The position numbers were made by a program, and so were the translations under genes. Below, one piece after another: positions 12,101 to 57,306 of a stretch of DNA of 64,000 nt; position 1 is the first letter of the stretch; the number at the start of each line of letters is the position of its first letter. Under the pieces are notes generated by a model that saw nothing but the letters and a program-made list of their open reading frames with translations, did no database searches and was not told the origin of the DNA. The stretch is from Whitmania pigra (lineage: Eukaryota > Annelida > Clitellata > Hirudinida > Haemopidae). Location: assembly GCA_021613335.1 (NCBI GenBank), contig JAJTWR010000141.1:16341-80340 (forward strand), in the 5' to 3' direction.

Positions 12101-13959
12101 ATAACGTAGTCGCCGATTCATTTAAAGCTAAATGGGCGGCGGGAGCAACCTCAGTTCCGGTTGCCGTTAAATATTTTTTAGACGTATCAACCGATGCAAC
12201 CTTTGCCGATGCCGGTAAATTTGTATCGGGCTATCGCAATAAAGATGTAGGCAATGTTACCGATTTTGATGTAAAAGGGCTTAATTCGGGTACTACTTAT
12301 TATTACAGGCTTAGGGCCGGGTATGCCGCTCCTTGGTATCACCCTAGCGTTAATTCAAACACAATAACGGTAAGTACTATGCAAGCCAACAATATTGCGC
12401 TTGCTGCAACAGACGTAAAAACTTATGGAGATGCTCCTTATCAGCTGGCGGTATCAAGTTCGGGTACGGGGGCATATACTTATACCATTACTGCCGGCGA
12501 TGCGGTTTCGATAAGTAATACCGGGCAGGTAACCATTTTAAAAGCGGGTACCGCTACCATTGCCGTTACCCAAGCTGCAGACGCTGTTTATGGTTCGGCC
12601 GGCCCCGCTACTCAAACCATTACGGTTCAGCTTAAAAGGTTAACGGTTACTGTTACGGCAGCAGACAAAGAGTATAATGGCTCCGATGCAGCTAACGTAA
12701 CCCTTTTGGTAACCGGAACAGTATATGGAGATATAATAACCGCTACTGCCGGAGGAGCAACTTTTGATAATAAAAACGCCGGAACCGGTAAACCCGTAAC
12801 CGTAACCGGAATTACCCTTTCAGGAGCAAAAGCAAGCAATTATGCGCTTGTCAATACGCCTGCCACAACAGCTACCATTACCGCCAAGCCGGTAAAAATT
12901 ATTTTAAAGGCCAACAATAAAAAATATGACGGCAATGCCGCCGCTACCGGCTCGTTAACTGTTGACGGCGTAATAACAGGCGATAATGTTACGGCTACGG
13001 CGGTAAGCATTGCTTTTGCCGATAAGAATGCCGGCACGGGTAAAACGGTAACGGCTACCGGCATTAACCTAAGCAGTAATAATTATACGGCAATTACCCC
13101 GGTTACTTCTACGGGCAATATTACCGCCAAGGTTGTAACAGTTACCTTTAAGGCCAACAATAAAGTTTTTGACAATAACACCACGGCAACGGGAGTATTA
13201 ACGGTAACGGATTTAGAAGCAGGGGACGTAGCCACGGCTACGGCCTCCGCTATGAACTTTGCAGACCCCGCCGTTGGCACGGTCAAAACGGTAACGGCTA
13301 CCGGCATCAGCATTAATAACGCCAACTACGCGCCTTTAAATACTACGGCTACCTCTACGGCCAATATCAGCGGTAAATCGGTAACGGTAACCATTAATCA
13401 GGTATCGAGCAAAGTTTATAACGGCAATACGAGCGCGAGCGCTACTTTTAATATAAGCGGTTTAGCGACCGGAGAAACCCTTACGGTAATTTCTGCGGAT
13501 GTTACTTTTGCCGATAAGAATGCCGGCACGGGCAAACCGGTAACGGCTACTAATTTTAAGTTTAGCGACGTTAATTATTCGGCGGCTAATTCATCCGCAA
13601 CCTCTACGGGGAATATTACCGCCAAGGTTGTAACAGTTACCTTTAAGGCTAACAATAAAGTTTTTGATAATAATACCGCGGCAACGGGAGTATTAACGGT
13701 AACGGATTTAGAAGCAGGTGATGCGGCCACGGCTACGGCCACGGCCATGAACTTTGCAGACCCCGCCATAGGCACGGGCAAAACGGTAACGGCTACCGGC
13801 ATCAGCATTAATAACGCCAACTACGCGCCTTTAAATACTACGGCTACCTCTACGGCCAATATCAGCGGTAAATCGGTAACGGTAACCATTAATCAGGTAT
13901 CGAGCAAAGTTTATAACGGCAATACGAGCGCGAGCGCTACTTTTAATAAAGCGGTTTAG
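9199..13959 (+). pseudogene. giant T9SS adhesin, N-terminal piece (LamG/FN3/YDG), ended by a frameshift
   Basis: The 1586-codon ORF begins with a signal peptide (MKKDLLSIVKFFSLAIVFLAFSFSVNA). Three 330-residue modules follow, each a LamG/concanavalin-like domain (ALNFDG.DDYVTF, WTEEMWVY, WTHIAQTYDGT.LKVYVNG, IDEVRIWSRALTEAEIKSNY) plus a fibronectin type III domain (SFTANWAAPSG...YYYRV). Then come a Big-like domain (KTYGDAPYQLAVSSSGTG) and YDG-type repeats (KEYNGSDAANV, NKNAGTGKPVTVTG). The frame is lost near 13947, where aatataagcgg of sister copies reads aataaagcgg, giving a stop at 13957-13959. The rest continues in two more frames to 18229. As it stands this piece lacks a C-terminal sorting domain and should not be exported by T9SS. 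Confidence 0.85.
9391..12380 (+). repeat. three tandem 990-bp LamG+FN3 modules
   Basis: The string ggaaacgc(c/t)ttaaattttgacggg recurs at 9391, 10381 and 11371, a period of exactly 990 bases (330 codons). Modules 2 and 3 are close to identical over long stretches (for example 10461-10860 against 11451-11850); module 1 is more diverged. LamG domains commonly bind glycans or extracellular-matrix-like ligands. High identity between modules 2 and 3 indicates recent duplication or gene conversion. Confidence 0.9.
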
Positions 13960-16098
13960 CGGCCGGAGAAACCCTTACGGTAATTTCTGCGGATGTTACT
14001 TTTGCCGATAAGAATGCCGGCACGGGCAAACCGGTAACGGCTACTAATTTTAAGTTTAGCGACGTTAATTATTCGGCGGCTAATTCATCCGCAACTTCTA
14101 CGGGGAATATTACCGCCAAGGTTGTAACAGTTACCTTTAAGGCTAACAATAAAGTTTTTGATAATAACACCGCGGCAACGGGAGTATTAACGGTAACGGA
14201 TTTAGAAGCAGGTGATGCGGCCACGGCTACGGCCACGGCCATGAACTTTGCAGACCCCGCCATAGGCACGGGCAAAACGGTAACGGCTACCGGCATCAGC
14301 ATTAATAACGCCAACTACGCGCCTTTAAATACTACGGCTACCTCTACGGCCAATATCAGCGGTAAATCGGTAACGGTAACCATTAATCAGGTATCGAGCA
14401 AAGTTTATAACGGCAATACGAGCGCGAGCGCTACTTTTAATATAAGCGGCTTAGCGGCCGGAGAAACCCTTACGGTAATTTCTGCGGATGTTACTTTTGC
14501 CGATAAGAATGCCGGCACGGGCAAACCGGTAACGGCTACTAATTTTAAGTTTAGCGACGTTAATTATTCGGCGGCTAATTCATCCGCAACCTCTACGGGG
14601 AATATTACCGCCAAGGTTGTAACAGTTACCTTTAAGGCCAACAATAAAGTTTTTGATAATAACACCGCGGCAACGGGAGTATTAACGGTAACGGATTTAG
14701 AAGCAGGTGATGCGGCCACGGCTACGGCCTCGGCCATGAACTTTGCAGACCCCGCCATAGGCACGGGCAAAACGGTAACGGCTACCGGCATCAGCATTAA
14801 TAACGCCAACTACGCGCCTTTAAATACTACGGCTACCTCTACGGCCAATATCAGCGGTAAATCGGTAACGGTAACCATTAATCAGGTATCGAGCAAAGTT
14901 TATAACGGCAATACGAGCGCGAGCGCTACTTTTAATATAAGCGGTTTAGCGGCCGGAGAAACCCTTACGGTAATTTCTGCGGATGTTACTTTTGCCGATA
15001 AGAATGCCGGCACGGGCAAACCGGTAACGGCTACTAATTTTAAGTTTAGCGACGTTAATTATTCGGCGGCTAATTCATCCGCAACCTCTACGGGGAATAT
15101 TACCGCCAAGGTTGTAACAGTTACCTTTAAGGCTAACAATAAAGTTTTTGATAATAAACCGCGGCAACGGGAGTATTAACGGTAACGGATTTAGAAGCAG
15201 GAGATGCGGCCACGGCTACGGCCACGGCCATGAACTTTGCAGACCCCGCCATAGGCACGGGCAAAACGGTAACGGCTACCGGCATCAGCATTAATAACGC
15301 CAACTACGCGCCTTTAAATACTACGGCTACCTCTACGGCCAATATCAGCGGTAAATCGGTAACGGTAACCATTAATCAGGTATCGAGCAAAGTTTATAAC
15401 GGCAATACGAGCGCGAGCGCTACTTTTAATATAAGCGGTTTAGCGGCCGGAGAAACCCTTACGGTAATTTCTGCGGATGTTACTTTTGCCGATAAGAATG
15501 CCGGCACGGGCAAACCGGTAACGGCTACTAATTTTAAGTTTAGCGACGTTAATTATTCGGCGGCTAATTCATCCGCAACCTCTACGGGGAATATTACCGC
15601 CAAGGTTGTAACAGTTACCTTTAAGGCTAACAATAAAGTTTTTGATAATAATACCGCGGCAACGGGAGTATTAACGGTAACGGATTTAGAAGCAGGAGAT
15701 GCGGCCACGGCTACGGCCACGGCCATGAACTTTGCAGACCCCGCCATAGGCACGGGCAAAACGGTAACGGCTACCGGCATCAGCATTAATAACGCCAACT
15801 ACGCGCCTTTAAATACCACTGCTACCTCTACGGCCAATATCAGCGGTAAATTGGTAACGGTAATCATTAATCAGGTATCGAGCAAAGTTTATGACGGCAA
15901 CACAACGGCCAGCGCTACTTTTAATATAAGCGGTTTAGCGGCCGGAGAAACCCTTACGGTAATTTCTGCGGATGTTACTTTTGTCGATAAGAATGTTGGC
16001 ACAGGCAAACCGGTAACGGCTACTAATTTTAAGTTTAGCGATGCTAATTATTCGGCAGCTAATTCTTCAGCAAATTATAAGGGCAATATTACCGCCAA
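13132..16098 (+). repeat. six tandem 495-bp YDG superrepeats
   Basis: Units starting gttgtaacagttacctttaagg occur at 13132, 13627, 14121, 14616, 15111 and 15605. Spacing is 495 bases except for two 494-base intervals, which contain the frameshifts. Each unit encodes two YDG-type domains (165 residues): one with FKANNKVFDN...MNFADPA and one with INQVSSKVYNGN...VTFADKNAGTGKPVTATNFKF. The central copies are nearly identical; outer copies are diverged. Such arrays form long stalks in surface proteins and recombine readily. Confidence 0.95.
13950..15179 (+). pseudogene. giant adhesin, middle piece (YDG array) in a second frame
   Basis: After the first 1-base deletion the repeat protein continues in frame (SGLAAGETLTVISADVTF...) for about 410 codons until a second 1-base deletion near 15156 (gataataacaccgcgg of sister copies reads gataataaaccgcgg), which gives a TAA at 15177-15179. 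It has no start codon of its own apart from internal ATGs such as 14241, no signal peptide and no sorting domain, so it is a fragment of the gene starting at 9199. It consists only of YDG superrepeats. Confidence 0.85.
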
Positions 16099-18229
16099 GC
16101 CGGTAAAAATTATTTTAACGGTAAATGATAAGGAATATGATGGTTCTCTAATAGCCGGCGGCATGATTATCGTTTCTGCATCAGATTTAGTAAGCGGAGA
16201 AACCATTACGGCCACGGCCAGCAGCATTACTTTTGCCGATAAGAATGTTGGTACGGACAAACCGGTAACGGCTACCGGCATCAACCTAAGCAATAATAAT
16301 TATATGGCAATTACCCCGGTTACCTCTACCGCCAACATTACCGCCAAAGCTGTAACAGTTACCTTTAAGGCGAACGATAAAGTTTTTGATAATAACACCA
16401 CGGCAACGGGAGTATTAACGGTAACGGGTTTAGAAGCAGGGGATGTAGCCGCGGCTACAGCAGCCGCCATGAATTTTGCAGACCCCGCCATTGGCACAGG
16501 CAAAACGGTAACGGCTACCGGCATCAGCATTAATAACGCCAACTACAGGCCGCTAAATACCACAGCCACCTCTACGGCCAATATCAGCGGTAAAGGAGTC
16601 ACAGTAACCGTTAATCAGGTAGCAAGCAAAGTTTATAACGGTAATACAACGGCCAGCGCTACTTTTAATATTACCGGTTTAGCAGCCGGAGAAACCCTCA
16701 CGGTAATTTCTGCGGATGTTACTTTTGCCGATAAGAACGTTGGCACGGGTAAACCGGTAACGGCTACTAATTTTAAATTTAGCGACGTTAATTATTCGGC
16801 AAGTAATTCTTCGGCAACCTCTACGGGAAACATTACCCCCAAAGATTTAATTATTACCGCAGACAATAAAACAAAATTGCCGGGAGAAGATAACCCTCCG
16901 TTAACGGCCAGTTATAGCGGATTTGTAAGCGGAGAAAACAATACCAATGCATTAACCGCTCAACCCTTATTAACAACCCCGGCTACCAAAGCCTCGCCTC
17001 CCGGCAACTATCCGATTGAAATAAGCGGCGCGGTTGCGGCAAACTCTAATTACAACATTATTTATAATAAAGGCGCTTTAACCATTTCAACCGTTGTGAT
17101 TACGGCAGTAACTCTTAAAGCTAATACTTTGTATGCCAACAGCCCGAAAGGCACATTAGCGGGCACATTAACAGCTTCTTCAACCGAACCGAATGCCATA
17201 TACGCTTATTCGTTGGTTCCCGGAGTAGTTGATAACGGTAAGTTTATCATCAATGGCGATAAGCTGTATACTAATGCCGTTTTTGATTATGCAACTCAGA
17301 ATACCTTTACGGTAAGGATACAAGTTAACACGCAATCGGGAGGTATGCTTACAAAAGATTTCATATTAGCTATTTTGTATGTAAACGGCTCTCCAACAAT
17401 AGATGCGATTCCTGATCAGTCAATCTGCGTTACAACAGAAAATAATACAATCAACCTTAGCGGTATTACGCCCGGGGCGGAAACTAGTCAAACCACAAGC
17501 TTGTCAATAACCGGCAATAATAAGGACATGTTTAATGATTTGAGCATAAAACAATTAAGCGATGGCAAAGGAATAATAAACTATTCGCTAAAGGCAGGGG
17601 TTAGCGGGTCGGCTGTAATAACGGTAACGGTGAAGGATGATGGAGGAACAGCCGATGGCGGAGTTGATAGTTATAGCGTCAGTTTTACGGTTAATGTAAA
17701 CCCGCTTCCCGTAATAAATATTAGCACAAGTACGGGTAAATTAAGGGTAATCAGGGGCCGTACCATTGAGTTAACGGCAACAGCTCCGGGGACAACCGTT
17801 TATTCATGGACGGATGCCAAAGGAATTATAAGCGACCGGAACACAGCCAGGCTGAGGGTTAAACCAACCGAACGTACCGTTTATACGGTAAAGGCTACTT
17901 CTGCCGCCGGATGCGTCGATGTTAAACAAATCGCCATAGAAGTAGGAAACGAATACAGCGATGTTATAGCCAACAATATTATAACGCCTAATGGCGACGG
18001 GGTTAACGATGTATGGGTTATTGAGAATATCGAACAGTATCCGAACGCTACCGTAAAAGTGTTTGACATAGCCAGAAGATTGGTATTTAGCCAAACAAAT
18101 TACGACAACAAATGGAACGGATATTTTAAAGACAAGCCATTACATGAAGGCACTTACTATTATGTGATAGATTTTGGGACAGGTTTATATAAAGCAAAAG
18201 GGTATGTCGCCATTATCAACGAACAATAA
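15158..18229 (+). pseudogene. giant adhesin, C-terminal piece with MBG and CHU_C (T9SS type B) sorting domain
   Basis: The third frame is open from 15158 to the stop at 18229. It carries the last YDG repeats, an MBG-like domain (PKDLIITADNKTKLPGEDNP), cadherin/PKD-like beta domains, and at the end the CHU_C or gliding-motility-associated C-terminal domain (NIITPNGDGVNDVWVIENI...VFDIARRLVF...WNGYFKDKPLHEGTYYYVID). That domain directs export through the type IX secretion system and cell-surface display, as in SprB-like adhesins. With frames restored the whole gene would be about 3010 codons. It is followed after 14 bases by a PorP/SprF gene, the usual partner. Confidence 0.88.
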
Positions 18230-38467: not shown

Positions 38468-38696
38468 GAAACTGTTTAAAAACAAAAAGCCAAAATTTCA
38501 TCTTGGCGACCTGTTTGACGTTTTATTTTGTTGGCTGAAAACAGATTCCCTGCCGCGGATAAGGCCGGAAAGAATTTGCTTATAGTTAGGAAAACTTCCG
38601 AAGACCTAGCAAGGATTTTGAATTCATGTTAAAATAATTCCCAAGCTATGATTTGGCATCCATAGAATTATTTTGAATAAAATTTAAACAGTTTCA
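38468..38696. mobile_element. 229-bp IS remnant with inverted ends
   Basis: GAAACTGTTTAAA at 38468-38480 and its exact reverse complement TTTAAACAGTTTC at 38683-38695 bound a 229-bp segment. The right 39 bases (38658-38696) match 53893-53931 with one mismatch, and weaker similarity extends left to about 38609. Just inside the right end a frame reads IHRIILNKI followed by a stop, paralleling the copy at 53840-53931. I infer an internally deleted insertion sequence keeping both terminal inverted repeats; a target-site duplication is not clear. The rest of the 38257-38929 gap shows no gene. Confidence 0.5.
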
Positions 38697-38929
38697 TTGA
38701 GTTTTTAAGAGGTTGCCTTAACTTTTGCCGTGAAAACGGCAATATATAAAATATCTGCGACAAAATTACAATGTTACATGCCTTTAATAAGTATTTAAGG
38801 TAAATAATCAGAATTTTTTTGTAAATTGCCCCCGTTTTTTGATTTTTTGGAACGCAGAATACCAAGTTTTTGAAAAAATGAATTATTTTATAACCAAAAC
38901 GATTAAAAAACATTAACTTTTGGTAAGTA

Positions 38930-44077: not shown

Positions 44078-46945
44078 CTAATTTCCTGATATTCCATTAA
44101 CAAAAGTATCTACAAAACCTATGATTTTATTTAGAACACGATCTCCGATTTCCTTAGATTTTAATACACTGGGTCTCCCTTCTTTTCGTAAATCTAAAAT
44201 TTCTTTTCGCAACGGTTCACGTTCTGTAAACAAATAATTCTCTATCAGTCTTTCCGTTTTTTCTTCAGAAAGATTTTCTGTCTTGACTAATTCTTGGAGT
44301 GCCTTTTCTTGCTCTACATTCCAAAATTTTTCAAACTCTTCGGGAATTGTATCCGTATCTTCAATATGTGGTAAATTTTCCTGAATAAAATTTTCAATCA
44401 ATTCTCTTTTACTTCTTAATGATACTTCGGTGTTCAGTAAATTGAAAATATCTTTTTCAATACTTTCTTTGTCTTTTGCATTATGTTTCGACTTGAATTT
44501 AATCAATAACTGGAGTATGTAAGTTACATTGATTTTATCACGTCTTATCAATTCCAATTCAAAATCTATATCATTGAGAATAGACGTTTTTTCAGGAGGC
44601 GGATCCGAACCTAATCTGTCTTTTAAATCCAAATACTTACTGGTGTAATCGGCAAAAAGCTGTTCTTCCATCTGTAAATCATCCCAAGTAAATTCTGTGT
44701 AATGGCTCATTTTCTTGTGTAAACGCATCATTGCACGGAAAGCCAAAATAAACTGTAATTGGTCTTCTTCCGAATATAAACCGTCAACAGATACTACTTC
44801 TGGAACGATTTCTAATAATTTTTGTGTTGCTTCTTTGAACTTTTCTACATACGCTTCGTATGGTTCAACGATAATCTGGTCAATTGCTTCTTTGTTACTA
44901 AATAAGGCGATGGCTTCGTCTGTCTTGTCTTTCAGGTTTCGAAAACAGACAATATTTCCCTGTGTTTTATTCTTATCCAAAATACGATTGGTACGGCTAA
45001 ATGCTTGTATCAATCCATGATATTTCAGATTTTTATCAACGTACAAGGTATTTAAATATTTGCTGTCGAAACCTGTCAAAAACATATTGGCAACCAGCAA
45101 AATATCTGTCTCATTTTGCTTTGATTTCTTTGCTACGGCATTGTAATAATTGTAGAATCCTTCGGTGTCTTTGACATTCTGTTTCTCTCCAAACAATTCA
45201 TTAAAGTCTTGCGCATACGTTTCTAATAATTCTCTACGATGAGGCTTGTAAACGTATTCTGCTTGTGGTTCGGCAACCATTCCTAATTGGGAATAAACAG
45301 CATCTTCCATTTCTTCTTCGTTCTGAGCAAAGCTAAAAATGGTCGCTATTTTTAAATCGTGCTGTCTCTTTTGTTTTTTTCGCTTGAAAATCTCATAGTA
45401 TTGAATGACCGCATCAATATCCTGTACGCACATCATCGCACAAAATTTCCTGTTTTGGGTTTTCTGATCGTGGTATTGAATGATGTAATCCACAATTGCT
45501 TCCTTTCGTTCAGGAGCTTCGAAAACTTCAGTTTCATTGATTTGTTCTACTTTCAAATCAATGATATGTTCTTTTTGTTTAAAGGTCTGAATATATTCTA
45601 CTGAAAATTTTAATACATTCTCATCACGTATGGCATCTGTAATCACATATTTATGCAGACATTTTCCAAATAAACTTGCGGTTGTTTTTTCTCCATCTGC
45701 ATTCTCTGCCAAAATAGGCGTACCTGTAAAACCAAACAGTTGAATATTGGTAAAATAATTGACAATGTTTTTATGGGTATCACCAAATTGCGAACGATGA
45801 CATTCATCAAAGACAAAAACCATTCTTTCATTCTGAATGGATTTCATTTTCGATAAATTTCTACCTGAAATCGCATTATTCAGCTTTTGAATAGTGGTAA
45901 CGATGATGCGAACATTTGGGTCATTGAATTTACGAATAAGGTCATCCGTATTAGTAGCAGAACTTACAGACCCTTTACTAAACTTATCATACTCCTGATT
46001 GGTTTGATAATCCAAATCTTTTCTATCCACCACAAAAACCACTTTTTTGATGGCTGGAATTTTGGATAGAATCTGACTGGCTTTAAAGCTGGTTAAGGTT
46101 TTACCGCTTCCTGTTGTATGCCAGATGTAGCCATTTTTTTCGATATTATAACCATTCAGTATTTCGTTTTCTTTTACCTTTTTGATAATACTTTCTACCG
46201 CATAATATTGGTATGGACGAAGTATCATCAGGCGTTTATCGGTTTCATTCAGTACAATGTATTTACATATCATTTTACTGATATGACAAGGTTCTAAAAA
46301 AGAATCGGTAAATCCGTTCAGAATATTGTTTAGTGGATTATTTTGTTCATCCGTCCAATGGAATGTCTGCAAAAATTCTTGTTTGTGCGAACCAGAATTG
46401 CTGAAATATTTGGTATTGACACCATTACTGATAATGAATAACTGAACAAAATGAAACAATCCTTTTCCTGCCCCGAAACTATGTTTTTGATAGCGGTTGA
46501 TTTGGTTGAATGCTTCTTTCATTTCCAAACCTCTTCGTTTCAGCTCGATTTGTACTAAAGGCAACCCATTCACCAGTAAGGTAACATCATAACGGTTTTC
46601 ATATTTACCTTTTTGCGTGATTTGATTGGTCACCTGATATTCGTTCTGACACCAATGTTCTACATTGAGAAAATCAAAATACAGGTTATCACCATTATCC
46701 CGAATAATATGATGCTTCTTTTCACGCAGTACTTTGGCTTTTTCAAATACAGAACCTTTATTGAGTATATTCAACACTTTTTCAAATTCACTATCGCTGA
46801 ATTGTATATGATTGTGCTTTTCTAACTGTGTTTTCAGGTTTGTCAGTAAAGCTTTTTCATCAGCAATAACAGCGTATTTATATCCCAATTTTTGTAATTG
46901 GGCAACGAGTTGCTCTTCTAAAATTTGTTCGGACTGTTTGCTCAA
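44078..46945 (-). CDS. hsdR: type I restriction endonuclease subunit R
   Basis: The 955-residue protein has the N-terminal nuclease domain with D120 and E134-L-K136 (YDVTLLVNG, VQIELKRRG), the Walker A loop TTGSGKT (about residues 277-283) and the DEAD-type box VFDECHRSQFG. Superfamily 2 helicase motifs such as FGFTGTPI and FSRTNRILDK follow, then a C-terminal helical domain that contacts the methylase. This is HsdR, which translocates and cleaves unmodified DNA with HsdM and HsdS. It is intact. Gene order hsdM-hsdS-integrase-hsdR on the minus strand is typical of Bacteroidota phase-variable type I systems. Confidence 0.95.
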   Translation of the reverse strand: MSKQSEQILEEQLVAQLQKLGYKYAVIADEKALLTNLKTQLEKHNHIQFSDSEFEKVLNILNKGSVFEKAKVLREKKHHIIRDNGDNLYFDFLNVEHWCQNEYQVTNQITQKGKYENRYDVTLLVNGLPLVQIELKRRGLEMKEAFNQINRYQKHSFGAGKGLFHFVQLFIISNGVNTKYFSNSGSHKQEFLQTFHWTDEQNNPLNNILNGFTDSFLEPCHISKMICKYIVLNETDKRLMILRPYQYYAVESIIKKVKENEILNGYNIEKNGYIWHTTGSGKTLTSFKASQILSKIPAIKKVVFVVDRKDLDYQTNQEYDKFSKGSVSSATNTDDLIRKFNDPNVRIIVTTIQKLNNAISGRNLSKMKSIQNERMVFVFDECHRSQFGDTHKNIVNYFTNIQLFGFTGTPILAENADGEKTTASLFGKCLHKYVITDAIRDENVLKFSVEYIQTFKQKEHIIDLKVEQINETEVFEAPERKEAIVDYIIQYHDQKTQNRKFCAMMCVQDIDAVIQYYEIFKRKKQKRQHDLKIATIFSFAQNEEEMEDAVYSQLGMVAEPQAEYVYKPHRRELLETYAQDFNELFGEKQNVKDTEGFYNYYNAVAKKSKQNETDILLVANMFLTGFDSKYLNTLYVDKNLKYHGLIQAFSRTNRILDKNKTQGNIVCFRNLKDKTDEAIALFSNKEAIDQIIVEPYEAYVEKFKEATQKLLEIVPEVVSVDGLYSEEDQLQFILAFRAMMRLHKKMSHYTEFTWDDLQMEEQLFADYTSKYLDLKDRLGSDPPPEKTSILNDIDFELELIRRDKINVTYILQLLIKFKSKHNAKDKESIEKDIFNLLNTEVSLRSKRELIENFIQENLPHIEDTDTIPEEFEKFWNVEQEKALQELVKTENLSEEKTERLIENYLFTEREPLRKEILDLRKEGRPSVLKSKEIGDRVLNKIIGFVDTFVNGISGN

Positions 46946-47024: not shown

Positions 47025-47948
47025 TTATCTAAGCGCCTTAAACATCTGCTCAATAGCTTTTTTCTTTTGTTCCATATTGGGATGAACATAAAGGTTTAGG
47101 GTTGTACTGATATTAGAGTGTCCTAATAGCACACTTACCGTTTTATAATCACAGTTACTTTCAATACATCGGGTTGCGAAACTATGTCTTAACCCGTGAA
47201 ATTTAAGCTCAGGCATTTTTAATGCTGCCATTAAGTTCTTGTAATAGCTTCTGTAGGTTCTGGGTTCCGTGGGTTTAGCATCGTTTGTCAATACAAAAAA
47301 CGAAGGGTTCACTATTTTTTTAAAGGGCTTCAATATCCGTAATAAATCTTTACTTATCGGAATTTCACGAATAGAATTTTTAGTTTTCGGAGTGTCCAGA
47401 ATCAATTCCGTTCTACGAATTCCATCTTCTATAACATATATCCGTTGGATTGTTCTATTAACACTGATAATTCCATTATCTGTATCGATATCTTCCCAAG
47501 TCAACGCACAGATTTCGCCAATACGCATGCCTGCACTCAAACATATATATACGCCTAAATTCCTAAATGTAAAATGCTCTTGTATATAGTTCATTATTTT
47601 TTTTTGATCAATTTTGGTAAGCACTTCAATATTATGCTTTTCTCTTTCGGTAGGAAACTGAATATCAAATGGGGTATAATGCAACCATTTGTTTTTAGCT
47701 CCGAATTTTAGAATCATTTTCAGAACAATTAAAATGTCTTTAATTGTTTTATGACTTAAACCTGTTTCTAACTTTTGGAATACAAAGCTTTGGACATCGG
47801 CTTCTTCAATTGCAAATTTATTGCCGAAATTAGGTAGCAGATGATTTTCAACCAATAGCGTATAAGCTGAGAAACTTGACTTTTTCACATACTGCTTTTT
47901 GTCTATTTTCCATAGATCAATCACTTCTGAGAGTTGTTTTTTGTTCAT
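47025..47948 (-). CDS. tyrosine recombinase embedded in the hsd locus (candidate hsdS invertase)
   Basis: The 307-residue protein has an N-terminal SAM-like core-binding domain (residues 15-85) and a catalytic domain with R142 (SAGMRIGEICALTWED), H251-x-x-R254 (KFHGLRHSFATRC), H277 (LLGHSNISTTL) and Y287 (LNLYVHP). The complete RHRHY set indicates an active enzyme. It lies between hsdR and the two opposed hsdS genes, the place where Bacteroidota keep the recombinase that inverts hsdS. The start at 47948 follows a 59-base gap from the silent cassette. Confidence 0.88.
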   Translation of the reverse strand: MNKKQLSEVIDLWKIDKKQYVKKSSFSAYTLLVENHLLPNFGNKFAIEEADVQSFVFQKLETGLSHKTIKDILIVLKMILKFGAKNKWLHYTPFDIQFPTEREKHNIEVLTKIDQKKIMNYIQEHFTFRNLGVYICLSAGMRIGEICALTWEDIDTDNGIISVNRTIQRIYVIEDGIRRTELILDTPKTKNSIREIPISKDLLRILKPFKKIVNPSFFVLTNDAKPTEPRTYRSYYKNLMAALKMPELKFHGLRHSFATRCIESNCDYKTVSVLLGHSNISTTLNLYVHPNMEQKKKAIEQMFKALR

Positions 47949-48109
47949 TTTATTTGAATTAAATATTTAAAATGACAAAGGAAGGAGAAAGGAATTAAAT
48001 GAGTTAGTATTTCAATCGGAGGATAAAGCTCTCCTCAATCTGCATTAAAGAGATTTGTAATCCCGATGTTCCTAATAAAGGAATTTCTTCAAAATCCAAT
48101 ACGCCAAAT

Positions 48110-49264
48110 TTGAGATTTCCAGGGTTTGAGGGGGAGTGGCAAGTGACCGAATTGAATGAATTAGGAGAGTTTTTAGGAGGAGGAACACCCTCATCATCAA
48201 ATGAAGATTTTTGGACAGGAAGTATCCCTTGGATCTCTTCTTCTGACTTGTCAGAAGGCGATATACATTCGGTGAATATTTCAAGATTCATAACCGAAGA
48301 CGCAATTAGTAATTCAGCAACAAAACTATGTTCAGGTCCCGTTATCTTAATAGTTTCAAGAGTCGGCGTGGGAAAAGTTGCATATTCAGAAAAGAGTTTA
48401 TGTACAAGTCAAGATTTTTTAAACATTATAAATTTTAAGTGTAACGGAATCTTTCTTTCTTATTTACTTTCCACTGAAATGAAAAAGGCTGCATCAGCCG
48501 TACAAGGAACATCAATTAAGGGGATTTCTTCTACCGAAATAAAATCGAAAAAATTATTTATTCCCAAAGAGAATGAGCAACAGAAAATAACATCAATCCT
48601 ATCGCTTATTGATGACCGTATTCAAACCCAAAACAAAATAATTGAACAATTAGAAACCTTAATTAACGGTGTATGTCAGAAACTGGCAAATAATAAACAA
48701 TGGGAAAAACAATATTTGCGAAATATACTTACTGAACGAAAAGAAACGAACAAAAACAATTTATCTGTTTTTTCTGTTTCGGTTAGCAAAGGTGTTATTA
48801 ATCAAATAGAATATCTTGGACGTTCTTTTGCGTCAAAAAATACAACTAATTACAACGTAGTACATTTTGGCGATGTTGTATATACTAAAAGTCCAACGGG
48901 AGAATTTCCTTATGGAATAATAAAACAAAGTTTTATTAGGGAAAATGTTGCAGTTTCTCCGCTATATGGTGTTTATGTACCAAAAAACATACATATTGGA
49001 AGTATTTTACACTATTATTTCAATAGCCCGAAAAATGCAAATAACTACCTGCATAGTTTAGTACAGAAAGGTGCAAAAAACACTATAAATATAACCAACC
49101 AAAGATTTCTGGATAATGCAATTTTTTTGCCAACTGATGAAATAGAAATAACAAAAATTGCATCGTTATTAAGTACTATTGATCACAAAATCCAAATTGA
49201 AAAAGCAATTTTAGAACAACTTGAAATGCAAAAGAAATACCTATTACAACAAATGTTTGTATAG
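48110..49264 (+). CDS. hsdS: silent inverted hsdS cassette lacking a start region
   Basis: The frame encodes two target-recognition domains and conserved regions of a type I specificity subunit (LRFPGFEGEWQVTELNELG...IQTQNKIIEQLETLI...EQLEMQKKYLLQQMFV). It runs opposite to the expressed hsdS. The frame is open back to 48008 but contains no ATG; only the TTG at 48110, inside the conserved LRFPGF motif, could start it. It therefore lacks the expressed gene's N-terminal MINKKLKVGNVP and probably any promoter. It is a storage copy usable after DNA inversion. Both recognition domains are intact. Confidence 0.82.
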   Translation: MRFPGFEGEWQVTELNELGEFLGGGTPSSSNEDFWTGSIPWISSSDLSEGDIHSVNISRFITEDAISNSATKLCSGPVILIVSRVGVGKVAYSEKSLCTSQDFLNIINFKCNGIFLSYLLSTEMKKAASAVQGTSIKGISSTEIKSKKLFIPKENEQQKITSILSLIDDRIQTQNKIIEQLETLINGVCQKLANNKQWEKQYLRNILTERKETNKNNLSVFSVSVSKGVINQIEYLGRSFASKNTTNYNVVHFGDVVYTKSPTGEFPYGIIKQSFIRENVAVSPLYGVYVPKNIHIGSILHYYFNSPKNANNYLHSLVQKGAKNTINITNQRFLDNAIFLPTDEIEITKIASLLSTIDHKIQIEKAILEQLEMQKKYLLQQMFV

Positions 49265-49951
49265 AATCTATACAAACATTTGTTGCAGTAAAAACTTTTT
49301 CTGTTCTTCTAATTTTTTCAATAGTTTGACTTCAATATCAATTTTTGAGTCGATAGATGAAAGGAAATCAGCAATTAGATTTTGTTCCCCTATAGAAGGA
49401 AGGTTAATTTCAACGTCAAAAAAATCAGAAACTCCGACATTTAAAAGACCGTGATTTCTGGCACCTTCCTGTGCTATTTTTTCGATTTCAATATTTTGTA
49501 TGCCCGATTCAAAATATTGTTCCATAAAATCTACATTAGCTGTTTGGTTTAATCTAAAGCAAATATATAAGGTTGAGACAATTCCTTTCTCATATCTTTT
49601 TAGTCTTTTTATAGCTCCCATTGGATAACCGCTAGAATAACTTTTGTTATATGCGAAGTCATTTTGTGTTAAAAGATAATATCCTGAAACATCTTTAGCC
49701 GAAACAGATTTATTAAAGAAATCAAGTTGACTTATTAACCCTAATCGAGCTGATATTGTCAAAACATTTTGATTATTCTCCGAGTTCTTCTGAATAATTC
49801 TTTCAGAAATATCCTTCAATTTAGAGATTTTCCATTCGGGAAATTCATTCCCATTATCATCTTTGAACCTTATTTTTTGTTTGAATATTTGATTGCGAAA
49901 ATGTCGGATTAAGGTTTCTAATTGTTCAATTATTTTGTTTTGGGTTTGAAT
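48620..49951. repeat. inner inverted repeat pair in the hsdS central conserved region (48620-48663 / 49908-49951)
   Basis: A perfect 44-base inverted repeat encodes IQTQNKIIEQLETLI in both hsdS copies, starting on a codon boundary in each. It falls between the first and second recognition domains. Inversion of the intervening 1.3 kb would swap the second recognition domain of the two genes without changing the frame. Confidence 0.9.
49247..49285. repeat. palindrome joining the 3' ends of the two hsdS genes
   Basis: Arms caacaaatgtttgtatag (49247-49264) and ctatacaaacatttgttg (49268-49285) are perfect reverse complements around the 3-base centre aat. Each arm encodes the shared C-terminus QQMFV and stop of one hsdS gene. 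It is the centre of symmetry of the invertible region and may also form a hairpin between the convergent genes. Confidence 0.9.
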
Positions 49952-50554
49952 TCTTTCGTCAAGTAAAGCTAAAAATGAAGAAATTTTACTCTGCTCATTT
50001 ACGGAGGGAAATGATAATTCTATTTTTGAAATCCTTCCAACATTGATGCTTAAAACCTTTGACCCTTGGGATTCTTTTTGAATTTGGGTTCTGACAGAAT
50101 TAGATTTAAACAAATAGCCATTAAAGCCCAAATGAAAAATACTTGCTTTTGGTCTTGCTAATAAGGTATGTAATCCTGATAATAATTTATCGCCATTGAC
50201 ATTTATAATTTCGATACTTTTACCTACATCATTCAAATCTTCGGAAGCATCTGCAAATATAACATCTCCTTCTTTGCAATAATTTTCATCCGAGATTCTT
50301 CCCACATTTATTTCGTCATTTATAAATGGGACTATTTCACTCGTAATATCAAATAAGGTTTGAAATTTAGTATGAATATCTCCGTAATGGATATTTTTTA
50401 CAGTTCCTATTTCGTAATTCAAATTTTCACGAGAAAAGGAATTGGTTACTTTGAAGTCCATAACTTCCCCCAACTTCTTAGTTTCCCACTCTTCAGTAAA
50501 CCCCGGAAATCTCAAATTAGGAACGTTACCTACTTTTAATTTTTTATTTATCAT
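49268..50554 (-). CDS. hsdS: type I restriction specificity subunit (expressed copy)
   Basis: The 428-residue protein begins MINKKLKVGNVPNLRFPGFT and has two target-recognition domains (about residues 15-190 and 235-410). These are separated by the central conserved helix with IQTQNKIIEQLETLI (residues 202-216); a second conserved helix lies at the C-terminus (KLLKKLEEQKKFLLQQMFV). HsdS sets the sequence recognised by the complex. It has a normal start and lies 47 bases downstream of hsdM on the same strand, so it is the expressed allele in this orientation. Confidence 0.92.
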   Translation of the reverse strand: MINKKLKVGNVPNLRFPGFTEEWETKKLGEVMDFKVTNSFSRENLNYEIGTVKNIHYGDIHTKFQTLFDITSEIVPFINDEINVGRISDENYCKEGDVIFADASEDLNDVGKSIEIINVNGDKLLSGLHTLLARPKASIFHLGFNGYLFKSNSVRTQIQKESQGSKVLSINVGRISKIELSFPSVNEQSKISSFLALLDERIQTQNKIIEQLETLIRHFRNQIFKQKIRFKDDNGNEFPEWKISKLKDISERIIQKNSENNQNVLTISARLGLISQLDFFNKSVSAKDVSGYYLLTQNDFAYNKSYSSGYPMGAIKRLKRYEKGIVSTLYICFRLNQTANVDFMEQYFESGIQNIEIEKIAQEGARNHGLLNVGVSDFFDVEINLPSIGEQNLIADFLSSIDSKIDIEVKLLKKLEEQKKFLLQQMFV

Positions 50555-50601: not shown

Positions 50602-52151
50602 TTAAAAAACAAGTCCCAATTCTTTGAAGTACACATCAATTTCTTTGTCCAGTTCCGCTCGCTTTGCTTCTAAAGATTTGATTTCCTGCATTACGGCTTG
50701 GATATCGATTTCTTCTTCGGCTTCAAACGTATCTACGTAGCGAGGAATATTGAGGTTATAGTCATTCTCTTCAACTTCTTTTAAAGTAGCTAAGTGACTG
50801 TATTTTTCAATAGTCGTTCTGTTACGGTAGGTTTCCACAATCTTATCAATATGTTCTTCCCGTAACATATTTTGGTTCTTTACTTTCTCGAATTCCTTAC
50901 TGGCATCGATAAACAAGATATGGTCAGGATCTCCCTTACACTTTTTAAATACCAGAATACAAGTCGGTATACTTGTTCCGTAGAAAATATTGGCAGGCAA
51001 GCCGATGACTGCATCCAAGTAATTTTTCTGTTCAATCAGGTATTTACGGATGTGTAATTCTGCTGCTCCACGAAACAGCACACCATGAGGCAGAACAATA
51101 GCCATTGTTCCATTCTCTGCCAAATGATAAATCATGTGTTGCACAAATGCAAAATCAGCTTTGCTTGAAGGAGCTAATTTTCCATATTGGCTAAAACGGT
51201 CATCATTTAAAAATAATGGATTGGCGCTCCATTTCGCTGAAAAAGGAGGATTTGCTACAATCGCTTCAAACGGCATATCGTTCAAATGCTGTGGGTGTTC
51301 TAGTGTATCTTCCTGTTTAATATCGAACTGACGGTAATGCACTCCATGCAATATCATATTCATTCGGGCAAGATTGTACGTTGTGCGGTTCATTTCTTGT
51401 CCGTAAAAATTATTGACATCTTTTACTTCTCTTGCAACACGCAGTAATAAAGAACCCGAACCACAAGTTGGGTCATATACGGATTTTAAACGGTTTTTAC
51501 CTGTTGTAACAATTTTTGCCAGAATTTTGGATACTTCTTGAGGGGTATAAAATTCGCCCGCCTTTTTTCCTGCACCGCTCGCAAACTGACCGATCAAATA
51601 CTCATAAGCATCACCTAATACATCTAATTCTGTAGCATTAAGTTTGAAGTCAATTTCATCCAGATGCTTCAGAACTTTTACGATAAGCGCATTTCTAGCA
51701 TCGGCCGTTCTACCCAGATTGTTACTATTCAAATCCATATCAGAGAATAAGTCCTCAAAGTCCTCTTCACTTTGTGTTCCCATTGTACTGAATTGGATAT
51801 TGGTTAGAATTTTTTGTAAATCTTCAAGAATAAAATTGTCATCGCCTCTTTTGGTGATTTCGCTAAATAGTTCCGAAGGTTTTAAGAAATAGCCCAGTGT
51901 TTCCAAGGCTTCTCTCGAATCGCTTCAATATATTCTAAACCTTTAGGGGTATCTTCTTTAATGTCTCTGAATTGGATTTGATCTTCTTCTAAAATGGAAT
52001 TTGCATAAATTTCCATTTTTTCAGCTAAATATTTATAAAAAATAAATCCCAAAATATAATCTCGGAATTCATCTGCATTCATTTTTCCACGTAATGTATT
52101 GGCTATATTCCAGAGCTGTTGTTCTAATATTTTCTTCTGTTCTTCTGACAT
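50602..52151 (-). pseudogene. hsdM: type I restriction methylase hsdM with a 1-base frameshift
   Basis: The first 80-odd codons from ATG 52151 (MSEEQKKILEQQLWNIANTL...RDYILGFIFYKYLAEKME...LEYIEAIRE) are the HsdM N-terminal domain. The frame is lost at about 51905 and the protein continues in the next frame (EALETLGYFLKPSELFSEI...) to 50602. The latter carries the catalytic motifs DPTCGSGSLLL (motif I) and NPPF (motif IV). One missing base in gagagaagcc explains the break. As written, a 434-codon ORF from 51906 lacks the N-terminal domain. Either the methylase is inactive, switched off, or the base is a sequence error. Confidence 0.85.
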
Positions 52152-53839: not shown

Positions 53840-53931
53840 TCAGCAATGATTTTAAATTCTTAATTAGAGTCTTAAGCTACGCTATATCCGGTATCCATAA
53901 AATTATTTTGAATAAAATTTAAACAGTTTCA
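53840..53931 (+). mobile_element. C-terminal scrap and right end of an insertion sequence
   Basis: The frame reads NDFKFLIRVLSYAISGIHKI followed by ILNKI and a stop. This resembles a transposase C-terminus and runs into the end ...TTTAAACAGTTTCA. Bases 53893-53931 match 38658-38696 with one mismatch, and similarity extends to about 53840 (agcaa.gatttt.aattc). No left end is found nearby, so only the 3' part remains. Confidence 0.5.
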
Positions 53932-54070: not shown

Positions 54071-55448
54071 ATGAAACTTCCCAAAATTTCAGGATTTGAC
54101 GAGCAGGCCTTAAACAAGTATTTCAAAAATACAGGATTATTGATTTTGAGCCGCATTATAAGTACAAGCATAAAAATGGTTATCAATATTGCGGTGGCTA
54201 ATTACCTGATGCCCATAAATAGCGGAATTTTAAATACTTCTGTTTCCTATGTTTTTCTGTTTGCCGGTATTGCCGGTTTGGGGTTAGACAGTTTCATTGT
54301 TAAAGAATTACACCGCTCTCCTAAACAAAAAGACATTATTCTGGGAACAACATTCAATTTAAAACTTTTTGGCGGCTTTGCTTGTATTCCTCTGATCTAT
54401 TTAGCATGGCTGTTTTTCCCTTTGAGCGGCATCCCATACCATTTCGTTTTTATTCTTTCGTTTATATGGCTTTTTCAATCCTTTTCGGTTATTGACAGTT
54501 ATTTCCAGTCAGAAGTACAATCTAAATATATCTTGTATGTACAAATTTTTGGCAATCTGATTTCTGTGCTCATAAAAACTGTACTCATTATTTTTAAAAG
54601 CAAAACTGATTTGGTTTTTTTATGCCTACAGCCTCGATATTTTATTGCTAAACATGGGGTATATTTTTGTGTACAACCGAAAAGGTCGCAACATTTTAAC
54701 ATGGAAATTTAACAGCCTTTTGGCAAAAAAACTGCTAAACTTGTCATGGCCTTTGATAATCAGCGGTTTAATGGTTTCCGTTTACATGAAAATTGACGGC
54801 ATTATGCTCAAAGAAATTTTAGGCGGCGACCTTGGCAACGGGGCCTCCGGAACTTACAGCGCCGTTGTTATGTTTAGCGAACCGCTAAATTTTGTTCCCG
54901 CAGTCATTGTTTCCTCTCTTTTCCCCGCTTTGTTAACCGCAAAACGGGATGATATGCAACGATATAAAAAACGCTTACAAAACCTCTATGACCTGATGAT
55001 ATGGATTAGCTTAAGCTTTGCCGTTTTTATTGGTATTGGAGCCCCTTTTATTTATAAACTTTTTAAACCCGCTTACGCGGAAGCTGCTCCGGTACTTTCA
55101 GTACATGTTTGGGGTAGTTTGTTTGTTTTTCTGGGAACAGCAAACGGACAGGCGCTGATTGCAGAAGGCTTTAACAAATTGATTTTTTTTCGTACAAGCG
55201 TAGGAGCTATTGTTAAAGTAGTTCTCAATTTTATTTTAATCCCCAAAATGGGCTTGATGGGAACTGCCATAGCAACCGTGGTTGCTTATTTTATCGCCGG
55301 CTTCTTTGTTTTTATTCATTCCAAAAACAAAACATCATGGTATAATGATGCTAAAATCTTTATTTTTGGTAACCGTTTTTCAAAAAATACTAATCCGTCG
55401 AAAAATTTAAAGGTATTGGTCTTTTCGGTTGCTGATTTATCCAGGTAA
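54071..55448 (+). pseudogene. polysaccharide flippase (MOP superfamily, Wzx-like) with a frameshift
   Basis: From ATG 54071 the first 180 or so residues contain typical flippase helices (YFKNTGLLILSRIISTSIKM, VSYVFLFAGIAGLGLDSFIV, GGFACIPLIYLAWLF). The frame breaks around 54620-54650. The second part continues in another frame from about 54620 to 55448 with LLNLSWPLIISGLMVSVYMK, IDGIMLKEILG, VFLGTANGQALIAEGF and PKMGLMGTAIATVVAYFIAG. Wzx-type proteins flip lipid-linked sugar units across the inner membrane. One indel separates the halves. The hydrophobic tail after 55448 lies in yet another frame (to about 55600), so the C-terminus may also be damaged. Confidence 0.82.
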
Positions 55449-55675: not shown

Positions 55676-57306
55676 ATGGACTTAGAATTTAACAAAAACG
55701 AGGACGTTAACAAACAATCGGTATATGAGTTAAAAGAAAAACTTAAAAAGATATTTGCCGGCGGGGGAGAAAGCAGCGCCGCTAAACAAAAAAAAAGGGG
55801 GAAGCTTTTGGCCCGGGAACGTATCAATTACCTGATTGACGAGGGAAGTTCTTTTTTAGAAATAGGAGCATTTGCCGCTTATGATATGTATATTGCCGAG
55901 GGAGGTTGCCCCAGCGCAGGGGTAGTGGCAGGCATTGGTTACGTGAGCAAAAGACAATGCGTTATCGTTGCTAACGATGCAACGGTTAAAGCCGGAGCTT
56001 GGTTTCCGATGACTGCCAAAAAAAACTTAAGAGCCCAAGAAATTGCCATGGAAAACAGGTTGCCTATTATTTATCTGGTAGACAGCGCGGGCGTTTATCT
56101 TCCAATGCAAGACGAAATATTTCCCGATAAAGAGCATTTTGGCAGAATTTTCAGAAACAACGCCGTCATGTCGGCAGAAGGCATTGTACAAATATCGGCA
56201 ATTATGGGCGCTTGCGTTGCCGGAGGCGCTTATTTGCCCATTATGAGCGATGAGGCAATGATTGTTGATAAAACAGGCTCTGTTTTTTTGGCGGGGTCTT
56301 ATTTGGTAAAATCGGCCATTGGCGAAGACGTGGATAATGAAACATTAGGAGGAGCCACCACCCATTGTGAAATTTCAGGGGTAACAGATTACAAGCATCC
56401 GAACGACGAGGCATGCTTAAACAGTATCAAAAAAATAATGAGTATGCTGGGTAGCCCTCAGCAAGCGGGCTTTGATCGGGTTTAAACCTGCTTTGCCTAA
56501 GCTTAAGCAAGAAGAAATTTTCGGCATTTTGCCCGATAACCGAGAAAAACCTTACGATATGATGGAAATCATCAGTCGCTTGGTAGATGATTCGGAGTTT
56601 GAGCCTTTTAAAAAGTTATACGGTCAAAGTATTATTTGCGGCTTGGCCCGTATTAATGGCTGGGCAGTGGGTATTGTGGCCAATCAGCGCAAAGTGGTTA
56701 AATCAAAAAAGGGAGAAATGCAGTTTGGAGGGGTTATTTACTCAGACAGCGCAGATAAAGCCGCGCGCGTTTTATTATGAACTGTAATCAGAAAAAATTC
56801 CTTTGGTTTTTTTGCAAGATGTTACAGGTTTTATGGTTGGAGGCAGGTCAGAGCATGGCGGCATTATTAAAGACGGCGCAAAAATGGTAAACGCCATGGC
56901 TAATTCGGTGGTTCCAAAAATTACAATTATAATTGGTAATTCTTACGGAGCGGGTAATTATGCAATGTGCGGCAAAGCGTACGACCCCAGATTAATATAC
57001 GCTTGGCCAAGCGCCAAAATTGCTGTAATGGGCGGCGCGCAAGCTGCAAAAGTGTTGCTTCAAATTCAAGAAACTTCTTTGAAAACCAAAGGGGAAGAAA
57101 TCTCTCCGGAAAGAGAAAAAGAACTGTTGAACCGTATTAAAGAAAAATACGAAGGCCAAACCACCCCTTATTATGCCGCGGCAAGGCTTTGGATTGATGG
57201 AATTATCAATCCTTTAGAAACGCGCAAAGTAATTTCTATGGGTATTGAAGCTGCAAACCAAGCTCCGCTTAAAAAACCGTATAACGTAGGCATTATTCAA
57301 ACATAA
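55676..57306 (+). pseudogene. acyl-CoA carboxylase carboxyltransferase (beta) subunit with three indels
   Basis: Piece 1 (55676-56485) has GKLLARERINYLIDEGSSFLEI, SAGVYLPMQDEIFPDKEHFG and MGACVAGGAYLPIMSDEAMI, as in methylcrotonyl-CoA carboxylase beta. It ends in a stop caused by an extra T at about 56480. Piece 2 (to 56780) carries GILPDNREKPYDMMEII. An extra CG pair at about 56765 and a missing A in the A-run at about 56792-56797 then shift the frame into piece 3 (56803-57306; FLQDVTGFMVGGRSEHGG, GNSYGAGNYAMCGKAYDPRL). Total length (about 543 codons) is normal for the family. The biotin-carboxylase subunit is not nearby. Three lesions in 1.6 kb point to gene death. Confidence 0.88.

Follow-up and report, generated by a model that had tools for sequence, protein, structure and literature searches.

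Two convergent hsdS genes lie between hsdM and the gene for a tyrosine recombinase in a 64,000-nucleotide stretch of DNA (contig JAJTWR010000141.1, positions 16,341 to 80,340), which raises the question whether one of them is a silent store of recognition domains that can be switched into the other. This whole stretch, called the window below, is a bacterial contig within an assembly of 178 Mb and 381 contigs, i.e. within eukaryote-sized data. We are highly confident that it carries a type I restriction-modification island with a two-site, four-state hsdS shufflon, and very probably the neighbouring recombinase flips DNA between the hsdS copies and thereby changes the sequence that the cells mark and cut. 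A start codon is present only in the hsdS copy adjacent to hsdM. In the proposed mechanism, the adjacent tyrosine recombinase would act on two pairs of sites and invert the DNA that each pair encloses. At the outer cores GTTCCTAAT, inversion would put the entire silent gene in the place of the expressed one; at the central repeats, it would swap the second recognition domain alone, and both inversions together would swap the first recognition domain alone. Two first and two second domains would thus give four HsdS proteins, and hence four methylation and restriction specificities. That the neighbouring recombinase is the catalyst, that switching occurs in the present strain now, and that methylation and restriction change with it, we infer from the assembled sequence.

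The genes hsdR, hsdM and hsdS of a type I restriction-modification system were found together, and the recombinase gene is located directly beside the silent hsdS, as in hsdS shufflons of the Bacteroides fragilis type. The recombinase (47025-47948, minus strand), a presumed invertase of 307 amino acids, has a Phage_integrase domain (PF00589, E 5e-29) and the motifs RIGE, HGLRH, LGH and LYVH, which we take to be catalytic. The presumably expressed hsdS (49268-50554, minus strand) is an open reading frame (ORF) of 428 amino acids with the Methylase_S domain PF01420 and an ATG start at 50554. The silent hsdS (48110-49264, plus strand) matches PF01420 in two stretches and is open from 48008, the preceding stop being at 48005. 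Its earliest start-like codon is TTG at 48110, with no ATG, GTG or TTG in frame between the stop and this codon, and its first in-frame ATG follows at 48479, so that only the minus-strand copy has an ATG start, as had been predicted from the bare sequence.

Also, all repeats named in the original prediction were recovered. The central repeat is identical at 44 of 44 positions (48620-48663, plus strand, in the silent gene; 49908-49951, minus strand, in the expressed one) and lies in codon phase 0 in both genes. It is the sole exact inverted repeat of at least 20 nucleotides (nt) within the window; in a control with 300 shuffles of the codons of the partner gene, matches reached 18 nt at most. 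The 5′ repeat of 24 nt with two mismatches (48104-48127, plus strand; 50498-50521, minus strand) is part of a 39-nt alignment with 79% identity that extends to 48142 on the silent side and begins at 50483 on the expressed side. The claim that all repeats keep the same codon phase holds for their exact parts, i.e. the 44-mer and a 14-nt part of the 5′ repeat. Where the 3′ ends of the genes converge, repeat analysis gave a tail-to-tail palindrome (49247-49285) with 19-nt arms (49247-49265 and 49267-49285) and a 1-nt centre. The palindrome was considered as a third switching site and dropped: with a centre of 1 nt, its inversion would leave the sequence unchanged, so that a role in switching is improbable. 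More likely, two genes sharing a conserved 3′ end meet here, and a role as terminator is possible. When the states reachable through the outer and central sites were assembled in silico, all four gave uninterrupted HsdS proteins, of 428, 408, 415 and 421 amino acids. The arrangement corresponds to the four-way inverting scheme of Atack et al., with repeats before the 5′ target recognition domain (TRD) and between the TRDs, one hsdS lacking a start, and all states in frame.

The position of the outer exchange was obtained from a second copy of the island in the same assembly, on contig C4. Over 8.45 kb of flanking sequence, 10 substitutions and 16 small indels separate the two copies, and the leaders of C4 are exchanged at both ends of the hsdS cassette: the hsdM-side flank continues into the leader that is silent in the window, and the recombinase-side flank into the leader that is expressed there. 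The two joins overlap in the 9-bp sequence GTTCCTAAT (48068-48076, plus strand, on the silent side; 50516-50524, minus strand, on the hsdM side), outside the 24-nt repeat. On the silent side, this 9-mer ends 27 nt outside that repeat. The 24-nt repeat was therefore dropped as crossover, since the exchange relative to C4 maps to the 9-mer. Thus, the earlier proposal of two inversion sites and four domain combinations stood with regard to the four open states, while its outer site had to be moved to the 9-bp core. As the leaders are swapped in C4, the outer site has undergone a rearrangement in the history of this lineage. A third contig, C144, which ends at window position 50440, is arranged on the hsdM side as in the window. 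The idea that the central site is a reversed outer core (GTTTCTAAT occurs in the reverse complement of the 44-mer) was also dropped, the part common across loci being ACCCAAAACAAAATAATTGA, and the comparison established no recognition sequence common to outer and central sites.

To place the island among its relatives, one genome per species (84,980 species) was scanned for the recombinase, which gave 219 related stretches; the best 80 of these, with identities between 75% and 97%, were used. These originate from Epilithonimonas, Chryseobacterium, Myroides, Flavobacterium, Sphingobacterium, Mucilaginibacter, Dysgonomonas, Bacteroides and others, including a few metagenome bins labelled otherwise; the best 120 recombinase homologues listed, among them that of the window, are all at least 91% identical. 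Of the genome loci, 58 extend 600 nt or more upstream of the recombinase; among these, a convergent (minus-strand) hsdS was found within 500 nt of the recombinase in 56 (exceptions: L079 and L105) and hsdR within 5 kb downstream in 43. Cassettes with hsdM in reach were then compared, comprising genome loci, the window, C4 and one locus from a viral collection (L113). Of 43 such cassettes 42 were kept, L079 with its 196 nt being left out, and L082 and L085, two contigs of one Dysgonomonas with recognition domains 100% identical, were both counted; cassettes and the pairs formed from them are phylogenetically non-independent. Common forms were cassettes of about 2.5 kb with two full hsdS genes and of about 3.6 kb in the order full, half, half, full, while several were irregular or had extra genes between hsdM and hsdS. 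In L079 (9721-9917, Mucilaginibacter oryzae), 196 nt separate hsdM from the extrapolated recombinase start, and the entire hsdS cassette appears to have been lost with hsdM, recombinase and hsdR retained. A viral origin was considered and dropped; a relative of the recombinase is encoded by two loci of the viral collection. A plasmid origin was dropped as well, and the recombinase region had no near match in the plasmid collection.

The outer 9-mer was present on both sides in 32 of the 42 cassettes and, despite ten core types, was identical between the two sides in all 32. Six of the ten types differ from one another at third codon positions exclusively. When the sides were permuted 10,000 times, 6.0 cassettes on average and never more than 15 were identical; the significance is overstated because the cassettes share ancestry. 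Around the core, mean identity was 41% over the 20 nt outside and 79% over the 20 nt inside. By this comparison, every change of the core would have had to arise on both sides. Further information came from contig ends, which lie within 400 nt upstream of the recombinase in 21 of the 80 genome loci. The core was recognisable in 17 of these contigs, 10 of which stop within 34 nt past it and the others 50 to 290 nt past it. Although the count is uncontrolled, this is as expected if assemblers stop where two orientations share the core and then diverge; in the four contigs lacking a core, an end before the core is indistinguishable from an absent core, because recognition needs a contig that reaches past it.

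The central site was likewise found across the family. The 20-mer ACCCAAAACAAAATAATTGA, which is included in the 44-nt repeat, occurred with at most three mismatches in both full genes of 38 of the 42 cassettes, the chance expectation from shuffling being about 1.2 hits in the whole set even at four mismatches. With TRD boundaries set as fixed offsets from the central site and not as domain predictions, 81 gene pairs had the same first domain and different second domains, and 61 pairs showed the reverse. Relative to the first base of the 20-mer, the change-over zone reaches from about 60 nt upstream to 30 nt downstream; the 20-mer has an identity of 89-97% in both sets of pairs. This zone is resolved only to roughly -60 to +30, as identity in the pairs sharing the second domain already climbs about 50 nt before the 20-mer, in conserved coding sequence; in a longest-match comparison of loci, several of the longest matches were chance hits outside the site. 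In one locus (L072), the expressed and silent genes have 503 identical bases from the outer-core region through the end of the 20-mer. Across genomes, families of recognition domains occur in expressed, silent and half-gene places. Among proteins, P0282, named as from a Bacteroidetes metagenome-assembled genome, has a relative of TRD1 of the expressed gene (89%) joined to a relative of TRD2 of the silent gene (91%) in the central region. This is the composition predicted for inversion at the central site, and its listed start falls after the leader. Among 240 listed proteins (two top-120 lists, at least 45% identity), 44 combined both expressed-type domains, two of them in swapped order, 36 combined both silent-type domains and two paired the expressed TRD1 with the silent TRD2; these counts are no frequencies, because the lists rank by similarity to the two parents. 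In P0173 and P0187, the latter named Vibrio cholerae by its source, HsdS proteins contain relatives of the expressed recognition domains of the window in swapped order.

Inversion of whole cassettes could be compared in 11 cassettes of the full-half-half-full form; the duplicate L085 and irregular cassettes such as L039 were left out. Their two full genes differ in sequence type directly after the 20-mer, type A having TTAATTAAAGG and type B lacking it. In 10 of the 11, an A-type half gene stands opposite the A-type full gene, while L109 is a tie; the strand with the better match was decisive here, since the motif is near-palindromic and an A-like motif is therefore present on both strands in most cassettes. 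The order was B-first in eight cassettes and A-first in three, a split that would be predicted from whole-cassette inversion. With two first domains, four second domains and sites of four kinds, these larger cassettes would match the four repeat sets and eight combinations reported for B. fragilis. The window, whose two genes are both A-like, has the smaller 2 x 2 form, and this explains why its central repeat is as long as 44 nt. The heads of the half genes in such cassettes meet around the TTAATTAAAGG motif, which resembles its own reverse complement, and perfect palindromes of 38-48 nt, some at tail-to-tail junctions, were seen in the cassettes of L035, L036, L039, L053 and L088. Natural alternative arrangements were found among relatives at both sites: at the outer site as the junction in C4, although with other recognition domains, and as the two cassette orders, and at the central site as domain reassortment and as P0282 with its identities of about 90%.

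Several observations weigh against a four-state switch driven by this recombinase. The evidence consists of assembled sequences and not of reads from one clone, and the recombinase is tied to the switch by position only. The 20-mer is missing or too divergent in one gene of four of the 42 cassettes, the outer 9-mer is present on one side only in six and on neither side in four, and a protein combining the silent TRD1 with the expressed TRD2 was absent among the 240 listed matches. The hsdM frame is broken in all three copies of the assembly, and the recombinase gene of C4 is frameshifted. C4 and the window have no recognition domain in common, the C4 cassette is about 1 kb longer, and the homology breaks off inside hsdR (44527) and at 55418, in both cases beside unrelated sequence; C4 might come from a second locus, from a different strain or from a chimeric join. 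The abrupt ends of homology and the different recognition domains, together with an indel-rich assembly, speak for C4 being an assembly chimera or strain mix and hence uninformative on the window locus. We consider this unlikely, and even if it were so, one line of evidence would be weakened in a way compatible with the proposed switch. Even a chimeric C4 keeps hsdM, outer core, cassette, outer core, recombinase and hsdR contiguous with swapped leaders, and a misjoin would need to strike both 9-bp cores and to exchange the leaders reciprocally.

Alternatively, the second hsdS could be a decayed or frozen duplicate whose repeats reflect conserved coding sequence, with no present inversion. In its favour, the HsdS protein is conserved in its central and C-terminal regions, the hsdM of this contig carries a frameshift, and both orientations are known from no direct reads. 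However, conservation of the protein does not account for cores whose sides agree in 32 of 32 cassettes even though six core types vary at third codon positions only and the outside flanks disagree, and a frozen duplicate fits neither with the leader swap in C4 and the recombinant P0282 nor with the contig ends near the core and the fully open silent frame. This makes a frozen duplicate very unlikely. Real rearrangements might also be driven by RecA-dependent homologous recombination, with the neighbouring recombinase serving otherwise. At the central site, some homologous recombination could proceed over the 44 perfectly identical base pairs, and recombination at pneumococcal spnIII, described as independent of all known site-specific recombinases, is a precedent (PMC6620402). 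The outer sites of the window, however, have only the 9-bp core in common before unlike leaders. A match of 9 bp is too short for RecA. In addition, the convergent hsdS adjoins the recombinase in 56 of 58 loci, and we regard a RecA-driven process as very unlikely. Inversion by the neighbouring recombinase at outer and central sites therefore remains the preferred explanation.

It is conceivable, though rather unlikely in our view, that the outer cores also act between molecules and that the recombinase moves whole hsdS cassettes or single domains between genomes. Near-identity of the window and C4 flanks right up to the 9-bp cores, with recognition domains that are all different, fits such cassette exchange. 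In comparisons between loci, the similarity of the domain exceeded that of the recombinase genes by 5 percentage points or more in 53 of 297 domain pairs (up to 98% versus 77%); the other 244 showed no such excess, and ordinary homologous recombination could be the source of the 53 pairs. If exchange of this kind took place, the hsdM/recombinase/hsdR island would serve as a chassis at which recognition domains dock from a pool shared across Bacteroidota.

The remaining features of the window were annotated as follows. The gene hsdR (44078-46945, minus strand) encodes a restriction subunit of 955 amino acids with the Pfam domains HSDR_N, SWI2_SNF2 and EcoR124_C, and TIGR00348 exceeds its cut-off. 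The gene hsdM (50602-52151, minus strand; N6_Mtase, HsdM_N) is divided into two ORFs by one frameshift; the underlying 1-nt difference at 51912 is absent from C4 and C144, and the split is probably a sequencing error. Adjacent or overlapping ORF pieces pointing to 1-nt frameshifts were seen at 51882-51906 (hsdM), 54071-55448 (flippase-like) and 55676-57306 (carboxylase-like), the latter two names being assigned by eye. The first two are likely sequencing errors, because small indels relative to C4 or C144 occur there. A long repetitive protein with many near-identical repeats is spread over three ORFs at 9199-18229. An interspersed repeat of 42 to about 220 nt at 38480-38706 has 32 further matches with 70-95% identity, one of them at 53842-53930 in the window, and the homology between C144 and the window ends at 53887 within the latter copy. 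The repeat is present on contigs C4, C38, C47, C49, C50, C57, C69, C73, C78, C83, C101 and C140; as it is common to so many contigs, C4, C38, C73 (the contig of the window) and the other repeat-bearing contigs are suggested to belong to one bacterial genome. Contig C38 (L012, 1426-7617) carries a second, different type I system consisting of hsdR, hsdS pieces and hsdM, named by eye, and its hsdS has 73% DNA identity over about 465 nt to the expressed first recognition domain of the window.

Taken as proposed, a bacterium whose DNA lies within a eukaryote-sized assembly would have the Bacteroides hsdS shufflon in a compact form with four states; the same island is spread through many environmental and host-associated Bacteroidota. 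Such a switch would let a clonal population hold several phage-defence specificities simultaneously. The original prediction is extended by the tyrosine recombinase next to the silent hsdS, by the outer core and by a wide family of related loci. The outer 9-bp core and the central 20-mer are now defined and directly testable, and recombinase plus core provide a search rule for loci whose short outer repeats could escape a filter for long perfect repeats. This applies to the survey of REBASE (PMC7394358), which, as described there, recorded only 100% identical repeats above a length limit and which a short outer site could therefore escape; the terms 'Chryseobacterium' and 'Flavobacter' are absent from its main text. 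In our literature search, no paper on an invertible hsdS with a recombinase in Flavobacterium was found, and hsdS was combined with Elizabethkingia or Chryseobacterium in no paper among the matches listed. The wider distribution of the island may thus be undescribed, but switches of this kind have been described before, in gut Bacteroides.

Inversion of hsd genes in Bacteroides and other genera, which the prediction had mentioned, is indeed described (PMC3090145, PMC7394358). Signs of hsdS inversion were reported in 13 species (PMC5903667), and in a gut community invertons overlap hsdS genes and are enriched near tyrosine recombinases (PMC11892184). The closest described counterpart is B. fragilis NCTC 9343, whose phase-variable hsdS locus BF1839-1842 has eight combinations, four sets of inverted repeats and a conserved 38-bp repeat (PMC3090145). 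As in this locus (shufflon BB) and its 638R relative, a tyrosine integrase lies immediately beside the last hsdS of the window, and the hsdS copies would exchange recognition domains at inverted repeats. Against the B. fragilis repeat CTTATTGATGAACGTATCGCTACCCAAAACAAAATCAT, the central repeat of the window is identical at 32 of 38 bases in the silent and 27 of 38 in the expressed copy, the next best place in the window reaching 23 of 38. Unlike NCTC 9343, the window has two switching repeats and four combinations, but full-half-half-full cassettes larger than its own occur among the relatives (C4, L035 and others). With the four-way systems of the REBASE survey, e.g. that of Streptococcus suis, the window has in common a repeat before the 5′ recognition domain, another between the domains, and four alleles, although it belongs to another phylum (PMC7394358). 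The pneumococcal cod/SpnD39III locus with PsrA also encodes its own tyrosine recombinase, by which hsdS was inverted in vitro at short repeats, and its short outer repeat (the 15-bp IR1) is required for inversion together with its upstream sequence, which can be likened to the outer site of the window. In contrast to the window, it contains three hsdS genes and three repeats (PMC7096588). Finally, the occurrence of recognition-domain families at first and second positions among the relatives, as in P0173 and P0187, resembles the domain movement (DoMo) described in HsdS; DoMo, however, moves sequence between positions of one gene (PMC3077401), whereas the switch in the window would exchange domains position for position.

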